Source: Bacillota bacterium
Lineage (GTDB): Bacteria > Bacillota_A > Clostridia > DSM-8532
Assembly: GCA_023424865.1 (NCBI GenBank)
Contig: JAFADM010000140.1
Location: 1 to 10,955 of the forward strand
Length of the DNA: 10,955 bases
Reading direction: 5' to 3'
The position numbers and the translations under genes were made by a program. Position 1 is the first letter of the stretch. Each line of letters begins with the position of its first letter. The notes beneath the pieces were generated by a model that did not search any database, had not been told where the DNA came from, and saw only the letters and a list, made by a program, of their open reading frames with translations. Below are positions 1 through 6,728 of this stretch, one piece after another.

Positions 1-671
1 ACAAGGCTTTCCTCATAAATAAGCTCCCCTTCGCTGTCATAGAGGTAAACTTCAGCCGGGACCTGCTTTCTCAGCGAGGTGCTGTCTTCTATCATTTTCG
101 AGAGCTCCCAAAAGGCATAGGATTCAACCTTGTAGTAAGCTTCAGGAGCCGTATGCTCAAGCTCAAAACGGAGAAATCCGTCGTATTCATACTCTGCCTT
201 TAAAAAATAATCTTCGGAAAAGATTACTCCATTTAACTCCGTTGACAGGGAAAGCACCAACTCCCCGGAAGCAGCATTTGCAAAACTATGAAACAAAAGT
301 ATCGTGAGGGAATGTATTTCCGTTGACAGCCTTGAGGTAGGTGAGGCAAGAACTGTCACATCCCCTGTTTTTTCTTTGTAATACAATTTTTTTGAGCCGC
401 TGCTGCTCTTATAAACGGGAAAAAGCAGAACCCCTTCGCTGTCGTCAGCCACAATAAGACTGTCGAAGTAATCCTCCTTAACAGGCAGCTCTGCCAAAAT
501 TTCAGACGGTCCCACAAGGCTTTGCCTCTCTGCGCGCCGGAAGGCCTGTTCAGCTGAGAATGCCGGTGATCCCGCAAGGATATAAAGCACCCCTAAAACC
601 AGTCCGGAAAGAAACAGGTTTCGAAGCACCTTTGCCCAACGGGGCAGGGAAAACCTTTTAAAAGGCTTCAC
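1..671 (-). CDS. Secreted or membrane-anchored protein of unknown function, third gene of the PadR unit (C-terminus cut off by the window edge)
   Basis: I do not recognise a family. Reading from a GTG at 671, about 223 codons stay open to the window edge. The N-terminus is a positively charged segment (KPFKRF... to about residue 18) followed by a hydrophobic stretch at residues 19-34 and a possible signal-peptidase site near SPAFSA (35-40), so the rest probably lies outside the membrane. The exported part is rich in acidic and aromatic residues, with a motif LLFPVYKSSSGSKKLYYKEK near residue 85-105, and looks like a beta-rich soluble domain. The GTG start is well supported: AAGGAGGT sits 8 bases upstream (680-687), and the GTG overlaps the preceding gene's TGA as GTGA, implying translational coupling. 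Position suggests it works with the single-pass protein encoded just upstream, perhaps as a partner or sensor. That is inference from gene order only. Confidence 0.75.
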   Translation of the reverse strand, partial: MKPFKRFSLPRWAKVLRNLFLSGLVLGVLYILAGSPAFSAEQAFRRAERQSLVGPSEILAELPVKEDYFDSLIVADDSEGVLLFPVYKSSSGSKKLYYKEKTGDVTVLASPTSRLSTEIHSLTILLFHSFANAASGELVLSLSTELNGVIFSEDYFLKAEYEYDGFLRFELEHTAPEAYYKVESYAFWELSKMIEDSTSLRKQVPAEVYLYDSEGELIYEESL

Positions 672-1852: not shown

Positions 1853-1900
1853 CTAGACCTCGATACTAGACCTCATACCAGACCTCATACCAGACCTCAT
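1853..1900 (-). CDS. Possible 15-codon leader peptide inside the repeat array upstream of padR
   Basis: Three consecutive 12-base repeat units lack one C compared with the 13-base units. This turns GTATCGAGG into GTATGAGG and creates three ATG codons in the same frame. The frame reads MRSGMRSGMRSSIEV and then stops at TAG, 25 bases before the padR ATG. Each ATG is preceded by GAGGT with a 5-base gap, which is good initiation spacing. A tandem repeat could create this by chance, and no homology supports it, so I treat it only as a candidate translated leader that might influence padR translation. Confidence 0.2.
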   Translation of the reverse strand: MRSGMRSGMRSSIEV

Positions 1901-1990
1901 ACCAGACCTCGATACTAGACCTCGATACCAGACCTCGATACCAGACCTCGATACTAGACCTCGATACTAGACCTCGATACCAGACCTCAA
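1854..1990. repeat. Tandem array of ten 12-13 bp repeats in the padR leader
   Basis: On the plus strand the unit is (T/C)AGACCTCGATAC. Seven copies are 13 bp, and three adjacent copies (1867-1902) are 12 bp because the G is missing (AGACCTCATAC). The full units run 1854-1980, and a degenerate eleventh begins at 1981. In the padR transcript each unit reads GTAT(C)GAGGTCT(A/G). The core ATCGAGGT is also one arm of the dyad in the padR promoter and recurs at 1996-2004. No unique spacers separate the units, so this is not a CRISPR array. The array lies entirely in the predicted 5' leader, between the promoter and the padR ribosome binding site. Confidence 0.95.
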
Positions 1991-2026
1991 AAACATACCT
2001 CGATAATCTATGCTTATGGTATTTTT

Positions 2027-3371: not shown

Positions 3372-4376
3372 ATGAGAACAAGCATGAAGAAGAAGCTTTT
3401 AGCCGTTTTATGCTCTGCGGCTATGCTCGCTGCCGCAGGCTGCGGGAGCACACCTGCCGCAAACACACCTGCATCGGCCACTCCCTCATCCCAGCCTCAG
3501 GCAAGCGTCCAGCCCACTCCCACTCCGGAACCGGAGAGCACAACCCGCAAGGTAAGCACCATTATGGGCGAAATTGAAGTTCCCGCCAATCCTGAGCGTG
3601 TGGTTGTCAACTGGTACATAGGCGACCCGTTTACCCTTGGCCTTAACGTGGTGGGATACTCCGCGTGGGCACAGGAAACCATGCCCTTTTACGATAAGTT
3701 CGATCCTGCGGGAAAGATTACCAATTGGGCTCAGGAGGATGTAATGGCTCTTGATCCCGATCTGATTATTACCTATTCGCAGGATGATTTTGAAACCTTC
3801 AGCAAAATCGCTCCCGTGCTTGTCATTCCTGAAAGCGATGTAAGCTCCGAGGAAAGGCTTCGCATTATCGGCGAGGCTACCGGAAGATCTGAAATTGCCG
3901 AAGAAGTCATTAAGGTTTTTGAAGAGAAGCTGGCTGATGCCAGGCAAAAATTTAATGCAGGCGCCTTTGAGGGCAAAACCTTCAGCATCATGGAGGACTG
4001 GGGTCCTTCCGGCGAATGGAGCGGGGTAGCCTACGAAACAGGCTCAAGAGGCGGAACCCTTGTTTATAAGTACCTTGGCCTTCAAAAGCCGGAAAAGCTG
4101 GAGCAGCTTATTGCCGAAACAGGCAAGGGCCGCGCCACCCTTAGCTATGAAATTGCCCATGAGTATTTTGGCGATTATATTTTATGGTTCCGTCAGGAGG
4201 GCAAGGATTCCGAGTACTCCAAAACGGAAATATGGAAAAGCATACCTGCTGTTGCCGAGGGCCGCCTGGTAGAAATCCCGGGCCTGTATCAGGGCCTTTT
4301 CTACTATGACGACGTAGCCAGCCTTACCGCTCAGCTTGACTATATTGTGGATGCCTTGAATCAACTGGCCCAATAA
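3372..4376 (+). CDS. Siderophore/iron ABC transporter substrate-binding lipoprotein (FhuD/FeuA type)
   Basis: The product is 334 residues. It has a lipoprotein signal peptide: MRTSMKKK, a hydrophobic core, and lipobox LAAAGC with the lipidated Cys at 24. A Pro/Ser/Thr/Ala-rich linker (about 25-57) follows, as in membrane-tethered Gram-positive binding proteins. The mature domain shows the helical-backbone (class III, TroA-like) family pattern: PANPERVVV near 73-81, LGLNVVGYSAW, EDVMALDPDLIITY, and later RLVEIPGLY. Such proteins capture ferric siderophores or haem outside the cell and deliver them to FecCD permeases. Which ligand is bound cannot be read from the sequence. The start at 3372 is supported by GAGGAG 8 bases upstream; the Met at codon 5 is a weaker option. 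It is the first gene of an operon with two permeases, 30 bases before the next start. Confidence 0.93.
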   Translation: MRTSMKKKLLAVLCSAAMLAAAGCGSTPAANTPASATPSSQPQASVQPTPTPEPESTTRKVSTIMGEIEVPANPERVVVNWYIGDPFTLGLNVVGYSAWAQETMPFYDKFDPAGKITNWAQEDVMALDPDLIITYSQDDFETFSKIAPVLVIPESDVSSEERLRIIGEATGRSEIAEEVIKVFEEKLADARQKFNAGAFEGKTFSIMEDWGPSGEWSGVAYETGSRGGTLVYKYLGLQKPEKLEQLIAETGKGRATLSYEIAHEYFGDYILWFRQEGKDSEYSKTEIWKSIPAVAEGRLVEIPGLYQGLFYYDDVASLTAQLDYIVDALNQLAQ

Positions 4377-4406
4377 TCGCCTTAAGGAAAGGACATCATC
4401 CTTGCA

Positions 4407-5447
4407 ATGAATACCAAGCACCTTGCAAATCCTCTTACCAAGCGCCCGTCAGGGGCTGTTAAATTCACATTAACCATGGTTGTGGGGTTCGGTTTGCTGG
4501 TACTTATGTCGGCGGCATCGATTAGTTTCGGCGCCGCCGATATGAGTTTATCCACAGCCTGGGGAGCGGTTTTCCGCTTTAATCCCTTACTTACCGAGCA
4601 TCAGATTATCCGGACGCTGCGTTTTCCCCGAACCGTTGCCGACCTGGTGGTAGGCTGCAGCCTTGCGGTCTGCGGCGCCATTATGCAGGGTACTACCCGC
4701 AATCCCCTCGCCGATTCGGGCCTCATGGGCATAAACAGCGGCGCGGGCTTTGCCCTTGCCCTGAGCATGGCCTTCATTCCGGGGCGCACCTATGGCACAA
4801 CCATGCTGTTTGCCTGTCTGGGTGCCGCAGTGGCTACCCTCCTGACTTATTTTGTGGCATCACTGGGCAAGACCGGGCTTACTCCCCAGCGACTGGTTTT
4901 GGCAGGTATCTCCATATCCATGCTTTTCGGGGCCTTCAGCCAGTACATAACCATTAAATACCACCTGGGCATGGCTCTGGCTTACTGGACAGCGGGCGGC
5001 ACGGCCACGGCAACCTGGAGGGAGCTGGGGATTGTTTCGCCCTTTTTTGTGTTTGGTGTTGCAGCTGCCATCGCCCTATCCCGTTCCGTCACCCTTTTAA
5101 GCCTTGGTGAGGATGTGGCTACCGGCTTAGGTGTAAAAATACGCAGAGTCAAAGGTATTTCCACGCTCATTGTGCTGCTTCTTACGGGGCTCTCCGTTAT
5201 TGTGGTAGGTCCTGTGGGCTTTGTGGGTTTAATCACGCCCCATATCGTTCGGTACATGGTGGGGGTGGATTACCGTTACGTTATACCGGCCAGCGCACTC
5301 TTTGGGGCTCTCATTACTGTTTCCGCCGATCTTGCGGGCAGGCTTATCAATAAGCCCTTTGAAACGCCTCTCGGCGTAATCTTTGCCGTTATCGGCGTGC
5401 CTTACTTTCTTTATCTGGCACGAAAGCAAAGGAGGGAGTTTGAATGA
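4407..5447 (+). CDS. FecCD-family iron-siderophore ABC transporter permease, subunit 1
   Basis: The 346-residue integral membrane protein has the hydrophobic profile of the roughly ten-helix FecCD/BtuC fold and the family's usual length. Recognisable motifs are LRFPRTVADLVVGCSLAVCG near the N-terminal third, TTRNPLADSGLMGINSGAG, and the ATPase-coupling region GPVGFVGLITPHIVRYMVG (268-286). It forms half of the translocation channel with the next gene's product. AAGGA lies 13 bases upstream, longer than ideal. This AAGGA can pair with TCCTT (hairpin 4389-4403), which might lower translation compared with the binding protein. The stop overlaps the next start as ATGA. No transposition or frameshift signs were seen. 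Confidence 0.93.
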   Translation: MNTKHLANPLTKRPSGAVKFTLTMVVGFGLLVLMSAASISFGAADMSLSTAWGAVFRFNPLLTEHQIIRTLRFPRTVADLVVGCSLAVCGAIMQGTTRNPLADSGLMGINSGAGFALALSMAFIPGRTYGTTMLFACLGAAVATLLTYFVASLGKTGLTPQRLVLAGISISMLFGAFSQYITIKYHLGMALAYWTAGGTATATWRELGIVSPFFVFGVAAAIALSRSVTLLSLGEDVATGLGVKIRRVKGISTLIVLLLTGLSVIVVGPVGFVGLITPHIVRYMVGVDYRYVIPASALFGALITVSADLAGRLINKPFETPLGVIFAVIGVPYFLYLARKQRREFE

Positions 5448-6460
5448 AGAGAAAACCTTCCTTCACCTTGAACCGGGGCTTAATGATTATCGCCCTTATG
5501 GCACTTCTTTCCGTCGCCATCGCCGTTATCAGCATGAACACCGGAAAAATGAATTTGTCCCCCGCTCAGGTTTTGGACGTGGTTCTGGGAAAGGGAACAG
5601 ATAAGGAAAGGCTTATTGTTTTTGAGTTCCGGCTCCCCCGCATTATACTGGCACTTCTTGTAGGTGTGGGAATGGGCGCCTCGGGCACCATTATGCAAAG
5701 CCTCCTTCGAAACGACATGGCCAGTCCCGGCACCCTGGGCATTAGCTCCGGTTCCGGCCTTTTTGTGCTTCTTTATGTGGTCATGTTTTCAGCTCAGAGC
5801 AAGGCCTCCCCCATCATCCTGCCCCTGCTGGCCTTTTTGGGAGGCATAACGGCTGCAGCACTCATTTTTCTTTTATCCCACCGACGTGGAAGGGATACTT
5901 CCCCCACCGGGCTTATATTAACCGGTGTGGCCCTGGGAACCGGCTACGGCGCTCTTACAACCCTTCTTACTTTAAAGCTTGACGAGAAGCAAATGGAGTT
6001 CATCCAGCGCTGGAATGCGGGCAATCTGTGGGGGGATGATTGGCGCAATCTTGCGGTGCTTGCTCCCTGGACACTTCTATTGTGGGGCTATGCCTTCTAC
6101 CGTTCCCGCATGTTAAATGCCATTCAGCTAGGAAACGATACGGCCAAGGGCTTGGGAGTTGCCGTAAAAACTGAGTTTTTAGGGCTCTCCATCGCTGCGG
6201 TGGCGCTTTCGGCGGGAAGCGTAGCTTTGGGAGGAAGCTTTTTCTTTGTGGGAATGATTGCCCCCCATATGGCACGTAAGCTGGTTGGGCCTAATCACAA
6301 GCTGCTTTTTCCCGCCGCGTCCTTCTGCGGCGCCATTATTATTCTTATTGCCGACACCCTGACCCGCACCATCAGCCTTGGCGCCGATGTTCCCGTAGGC
6401 ATTGTCATCACCGTACTCAGCACCCCTTATTTTCTTTATCTCATGGCCCGCTCCAACTGA
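5444..6460 (+). CDS. FecCD-family iron-siderophore ABC transporter permease, subunit 2
   Basis: The product is 338 residues and similar in design to the preceding permease. It shows FEFRLPRIILALLVGVGMG, the loop RNDMASPGTLGISSGSG, and the coupling motif FFFVGMIAPHMARKLVG (266-282) that contacts the ATPase. It would pair with the first permease to make a heterodimeric channel. The start ATG overlaps the upstream TGA by four bases, with AAGGAGG 8 bases before it (5429-5435), so translation is coupled and efficient. The operon ends here with no FecE/FhuC-type ATPase gene, and the next gene downstream has its own SOS-type promoter. A shared ATPase encoded elsewhere is therefore needed, as known for Bacillus FeuABC with YusV. 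Confidence 0.93.
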   Translation: MKRKPSFTLNRGLMIIALMALLSVAIAVISMNTGKMNLSPAQVLDVVLGKGTDKERLIVFEFRLPRIILALLVGVGMGASGTIMQSLLRNDMASPGTLGISSGSGLFVLLYVVMFSAQSKASPIILPLLAFLGGITAAALIFLLSHRRGRDTSPTGLILTGVALGTGYGALTTLLTLKLDEKQMEFIQRWNAGNLWGDDWRNLAVLAPWTLLLWGYAFYRSRMLNAIQLGNDTAKGLGVAVKTEFLGLSIAAVALSAGSVALGGSFFFVGMIAPHMARKLVGPNHKLLFPAASFCGAIIILIADTLTRTISLGADVPVGIVITVLSTPYFLYLMARSN

Positions 6461-6641: not shown

Positions 6642-6728
6642 GGACCTTCGGATGCCTCGGGCTTTAAGGCCATTTGCCATTGTGCCGTTTGCCGGGGGTG
6701 CCGCCTTAGGCAATCCGGAACAAGGTCC
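6642..6728 (+). other. Predicted stem-loop in the helicase leader/start region
   Basis: An interrupted inverted repeat pairs GGACCTT (6642-6648) with AAGGTCC (6722-6728), CGGAT (6649-6653) with ATCCG (6713-6717), and GCC (6654-6656) with GGC (6709-6711). Inside it TAAGGC (6665-6670) pairs with GCCTTA (6703-6708). In RNA this would bury the ATG at 6652 in the stem. It may be an unrecognised leader structure or simply part of the coding sequence. Confidence 0.4.

Follow-up and report, generated by a model that had tools for sequence, protein, structure and literature searches.

A tandem GAGGTCT array in the 5′ leader of a putatively autoregulated padR–HAAS operon

The padR operon and its leader array

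The window analysed here is the whole 10,955-nucleotide stretch of contig JAFADM010000140.1 (assembly GCA_023424865.1) from a Bacillota bacterium of the class Clostridia. Its minus strand carries an operon consisting of a stand-alone padR gene, an adjacent HAAS-type gene and a third gene (Table 1), and a tandem array of GAGGTCT units lies between the promoter and padR. Tandem Repeats Finder (TRF) places this array at positions 1855–2005, with a period of 13, 11.8 copies, 90% matches and a score of 225. The top score in 200 dinucleotide-shuffled windows was 62; the array is genuine, exceeds chance by a wide margin and in this respect has the tandem units that define a minisatellite or variable-number tandem repeat (VNTR).

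Read on the padR-sense strand, ten of the 11 units start with TAT and one edge unit starts with TTT, the edge unit being TTTGAGGT. The core ATCGAGGT is found in seven of the units, with one further copy in the operator O2. Three consecutive units are TATGAGGT, which is 12 nt long with one C fewer, and the units end in either GAGGTCTAG or GAGGTCTGG. The order of the variants, CTAG or CTGG and 12 or 13 nt, shows no period, and the sequence on either side of the array is unique. The GAGGT word forms a ladder of 14 copies that runs from O2 to the Shine-Dalgarno (SD) sequence of padR, with seven spacings of 13 nt, three of 12, two of 13 and one of 10, and the array is in register with the O2 arm at one end and with the padR SD at the other. 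A preliminary description of this DNA had recognised the array and had placed it correctly, downstream of the likely transcription start point and upstream of padR as judged from the consensus promoter and the PF03551 match. Its extent, given as ten units, was too small, and the core that it described as repeated is confined to seven of the units, though the sharing of an arm with an operator stands.

Table 1. Coordinates of the padR operon, its promoter region and its leader
Feature	Position in window	Strand	Basis or remark
Third operon gene, runs off the window	3–671	−	Open reading frame (ORF); tblastn matches in 7 loci
HAAS-like gene, 268 aa from this start	668–1474	−	NF038403, permease prefix domain 1, E 1.3e-9
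padR, PadR-family winged-helix regulator, 118 aa	1471–1827	−	PF03551, E 1.2e-25
padR SD GGAGGT, final rung of the GAGGT ladder	1834–1839	−	Anti-SD duplex −10.9 kcal/mol
Predicted upstream ORF MRSGMRSGMRSSIEV plus stop, 15 codons	1853–1900	−	Created by three 12-nt units
Tandem array, 11 GAGGTCT units of 12–13 nt	1853–1991	−	TRF, unit list, shuffles
Operator O2, predicted, 21-bp palindrome just downstream of the likely start point	1995–2015	−	EM matrix 22.9
Sigma-70-type promoter: −35 TTGACT (2055–2050), 17-nt spacer, −10 TATTAT (2032–2027)	2027–2055	−	Consensus match 10/12
Operator O1, predicted, 21-bp palindrome in the −35/−10 spacer	2030–2050	−	EM matrix 23.5; first matrix 24.6

The genes of the operon overlap, the start of the HAAS-like gene with the padR stop in an ATGA at 1474–1471 and the start of gene 3 with the stop of the HAAS-like gene in a GTGA at 671–668. 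The HAAS-like gene, scanned as 668–1534, matches NF038403 with 37.8 bits against a cut-off of 30; Pfam gave no hit for it, and HAAS itself has no named Pfam hit. The stand-alone padR with this gene adjacent to it thus has the composition of a HAAS–PadR pair, which the excerpts of PMC11237479 describe as a signalling arrangement, and in 86 of the 112 relative loci described below tblastn matched the HAAS-like gene, mostly right after padR. According to the excerpted text of PMC6624303, the LltR–DUF1700–DUF4097 operon of Listeria likewise has a stand-alone PadR followed by a HAAS-type gene; gene 3 of the window differs in having no DUF4097 or other hit in Pfam. A leader repeat array such as that of the window goes unmentioned in the excerpts of both papers.

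Operators, relatives and the origin of the array

The comparison used 112 relative leaders, made up of 80 loci (the best 80 of 540 confirmed candidates) and a further 32 loci (L088–L119); L081–L087 were excluded as they repeat earlier places, and L121–L123 were inspected by eye only. Leaders were cut at 350 nt, one (L004) being only 24 nt long and four others 182–255 nt, and operators were scored in 111 relatives as L004 was too short. In most of these leaders a common plan is visible by eye: TTGACA, a 21-bp palindrome in the promoter spacer and, as a rule, another one close to the start point. A symmetric matrix obtained by expectation maximisation (EM) on 187 distinct sites gives arms near ATAYMTMGAT with a 5-bp centre between a fixed G and C, and this centre is 5 bp in 122 of 123 sites found with a regular expression. 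The EM matrix was seeded from such sites with some letters, including the T, fixed, so that its conservation values are biased upward. At least two sites are present in 95 of the 111 leaders, one in 7 and none in 9, and of 103 neighbouring pairs 27 are separated by a 15-bp step and 34 by a 24-bp step. The comparison yields a consensus for the PadR operator of this subfamily, as found in Clostridia and Paenibacillus. In L023, L058, L063 and other Paenibacillus and Clostridium padR leaders the palindromes stand at steps of about 15 bp with neighbours overlapping and appear as period-15 repeats. Six loci among the closest padR relatives (L006, L091, L049, L002, L096 and L100) have no operator site just upstream; there padR is preceded by other genes (by a gene-3-like one in the case of L096), and the operon order is thus rearranged.

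The promoter and operator layout of the window is the same as in the relatives. Promoter consensus matches alone are no evidence for a promoter, since two were found in the region where shuffles lead one to expect 3.3. The EM scores of O1 and O2, both with inverted arms around a 5-bp centre, lie close to the median of the relatives' sites (23.0), and over the window these two alone exceed 22, the next position scoring 7.2. With the first, stricter matrix based on the regular expression O2 scores 13.2, slightly below the training minimum of 14.4, and the next best position in the window −0.6. The 35-bp step from O1 to O2 exceeds the frequent 15- and 24-bp steps, and is also found in one relative's pair. 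The preliminary description had seen the repeated core as one arm of a promoter dyad; the core is indeed an arm of O2, but the presumed dyad, an inverted pair at 1993–2010 and 2035–2052, mixes one O2 arm with one O1 arm, that is, two different operators. Two operators over the promoter suggest that PadR represses its own operon, as had been proposed and as seems probable from the sequence, and PadR dimers bound at O1 and O2 would probably control transcription in the ordinary way. Listeria LltR, a PadR of similar layout, is reported to repress its own gene in the excerpts of PMC6624303.

In contrast to the operators, each array unit has a single arm, in direct orientation throughout, and no partner arm across a 5-bp centre. 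The array arm AGACCTCGAT also differs from the operator arm ATACCTCGAT in that a G replaces the T at position 2, where the relatives have T in 96.3% and G in 0.5% of arms (187 EM sites, values biased upward). Among full sites that fit entirely within the array the highest score is −4.8, which ranks 24th of 10,935 window positions, against 23.5 and 22.9 for O1 and O2. On score and spacing a row of full PadR operators is rejected, and the label operator-like, under which the array was introduced, is not supported.

The array stands in a leader of otherwise normal dimensions. In 102 relatives the start codon lies at a median distance of 20 nt from the last operator (10–90% range 12–42, maximum 132), compared with 167 nt in the window. 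The block from the first to the last repeated GAGGT is 140 nt, and the 27 nt that are left without it are a normal distance. None of the 112 relative leaders has a comparable array, the best TRF score of 75 belonging to an operator pair; among these leaders are those of the six loci with the order padR–HAAS–gene 3 (L013, L036, L093, L099, L105 and L107), which are defined by gene-3 matches that are partly short (55 aa in L036 and 80 aa in L099). Short, low-scoring repeats do occur in relatives, in L057 (10-nt units, 4.9 copies, score 40) and in L015 and L022 (2-nt units). A PadR search gave a match at E ≤ 1e-30 in 46 of 300 genomes, with a best identity of 71%. In the family of the genome with the nearest relative of the window's helicase (see below) 3 of 32 genomes matched at E ≤ 1e-28, and in its class none of 391 at E ≤ 1e-36, a limit that also excludes the class's own known match at 3.5e-31. 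Protein relatives of PadR reach 77% (P0002) and 76% (P0005) identity. The nearest padR locus read, L091 at 71%, has neither an operator site nor an array upstream.

Since the distance is normal without the block and the relatives have no comparable array, growth by slippage between the GAGGT words at the two ends would be the simplest history. Its register and length make replication slippage or unequal recombination the most likely source of the array; the GAGGT words involved would already have stood in the ribosome-binding region and in the right arm of O2, ATCGAGGTAT, whose register the array shares. The array would then have grown to 11 units, lengthening the mRNA leader by about 140 nt.

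The exact two-unit pattern is absent from IMG/VR, and with up to three mismatches it was hit in one of 394 genomes, the reversed control giving four matches. In 33 genomes from the order of the best helicase relative there was one GAGGT pattern hit against one control hit, and the former reads as a glycine-rich coding stretch. Membership of a spread repeat family was rejected, and positions 1780–2300 of the window show no similarity in plasmid or phage records. Four GAGGT words at 13-nt steps, with two mismatches allowed, were found in one of 291 genomes (G883, locus L125) as seven overlapping matches, while the reversed control gave single matches in four genomes. At 1495–1713 of L125 there is a 13-nt GAGGT array of other sequence, with 16.8 copies, which extends from the end of a TauE-type gene and lies before RsfS. 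No PadR is present among the four predicted proteins tested in this 3-kb stretch, so that, on this single case, GAGGT arrays of 13-nt period are not tied to PadR; the L125 array is consistent with a generic minisatellite. The same 3-kb stretch holds a second array at 2525–2829 (25-nt units, 12.2 copies), and G883 may be minisatellite-rich.

The leader RNA and competing readings

Duplex energies with the anti-SD were computed against the 16S rRNA tail. They are −6.8 to −7.1 kcal/mol for the array units, −7.3 for the SD of the upstream AraC-family gene and −10.9 for that of padR. Since an energy of −7.0 or lower occurs in about 5.8% of background 11-mers, single units are unremarkable as SD-like sites while the ladder is remarkable. 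The three 12-nt units keep the reading frame and so create the predicted upstream ORF, which has three in-frame ATGs, each 5 nt past a GAGGT, and a stop 25 nt before padR. The predicted cost of opening the padR start is 9.2 kcal/mol with the array and 5.6 kcal/mol without it. A riboswitch or other known structured RNA was rejected, the leader having no Rfam match at the gathering score and a fold z of 0.25, and CsrA-type GGA sites were rejected on reading the GAGGTCT units, which are without GGA.

On these predictions an effect at the level of RNA is more plausible than one at the level of DNA. If the array acts, translation would be the most likely target, each unit being a moderate SD-like site. 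Pairing between units is possible, and by prediction the padR start is harder to open when the whole array is present. The overlaps among the three operon genes make translational coupling possible, through which altered translation of padR could affect the genes after it. A more specific proposal, which we regard as doubtful, is that the SD-like ladder holds or misdirects the 30S subunit, that ribosomes on the leader ORF open or block the padR start and that slippage resets the level of the autorepressor and the operon while leaving the operators untouched. Were this so, the gain or loss of units would reset a whole HAAS-type, possibly membrane-stress, operon.

The reading that we favour, and hold to be reasonably probable, is a minisatellite that slippage between GAGGT words has produced in the 5′ leader of a PadR–HAAS operon under autoregulation, with any effect likeliest in the RNA. 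The array would then be ordinary in kind and unusual in its location, and the chance that it has a role in translation is modest. Several observations weigh against this. The predicted opening energy varies irregularly over intermediate unit numbers (4.6 to 12.4 kcal/mol) with no smooth change, and the whole leader folds no better than shuffles. GAGGTCT is invariant in all 11 units, which selection could explain as well as merely recent growth. The unit count is known from one sequence, and a change in copy number has never been observed. The pattern that yielded the L125 array is itself selective for such arrays; it matched in one of 291 genomes, and its reversed control also gave matches. 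A 13-bp step, present in one of the 103 operator pairs of the relatives, is not impossible for operators, and seven copies of AGACCTCGAT rank among the 21 best of 21,892 ten-mers, so that the likeness of the array arm to the operator is not due to chance.

This last likeness is what recommends an array of half-sites, in which units bind PadR weakly and cooperatively and titrate the repressor or block elongation: ATCGAGGT, present in seven units, is an operator arm short of one base, and the relatives' operators sometimes follow one another at 15-bp steps. The missing partner arm and the replacement of the key T argue against it, as do the four of 11 units that are entirely without ATCGAGGT, and descent from O2 also explains the likeness. 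We therefore consider such a half-site array highly improbable, though units may bind PadR weakly, and the repressor sink suggested in the preliminary description unlikely. An array of the same slippage origin in which unit number has no regulatory effect, autoregulation and the strong SD buffering padR, is a more credible alternative, if still a rather unlikely one. It accords with the absence of a comparable array from the relatives examined, with the unexceptional folding and with a padR SD stronger than any unit, while the predicted RNA effects and the SD-spaced upstream ORF would make a complete lack of effect somewhat surprising. That the unit number was mis-assembled from short reads is very improbable indeed: the number rests on a single assembly and could err in its exact value, but non-periodic variants between unique flanks are an unlikely invention. 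If the array tunes translation, it would offer a clear example from nature of control by repeat number, placed between an operator pair and a ribosome-binding site that are both intact; if it is neutral, operator-arm and SD sequences can seed minisatellites that resemble operator arrays.

Bacterial minisatellites and VNTRs consist of head-to-tail units with small variants next to genes; PMC12817950 deals with this kind of repeat. The window array is likewise a run of head-to-tail 12–13-nt units with small variants beside a gene, and differs in that its units are SD-like and bridge an operator arm and a real SD, with a copy number known from one sequence. A comparable kind of leader repeat is the TAACTGA heptamer of Beggiatoaceae, direct repeats upstream of start codons with a possible post-transcriptional role in the excerpts of PMC4679880; that unit is a different one and occurs genome-wide, whereas the window has one 13-nt array with an SD. 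Among the matches listed from the open-access literature, no description of a repeat array in a PadR leader was recognisable, which agrees with the earlier impression that no such leader had been described and is weak evidence of novelty.

Neighbouring genes

Upstream of padR lies the AraC-family gene and then, on the other strand, a transport operon of the Fe-siderophore type. The uptake genes at 3372–6460, adjoining the AraC regulator, encode two FecCD permeases and a binding protein; none of the ORFs scanned next to these genes encodes an ATPase. The DEAD_2/XPD-like helicase encoded at 6652–9201 matches PD-(D/E)XK weakly in its N-terminal part; its nearest protein, P0121 on another contig, is 96% identical and the next are 61–63% identical.
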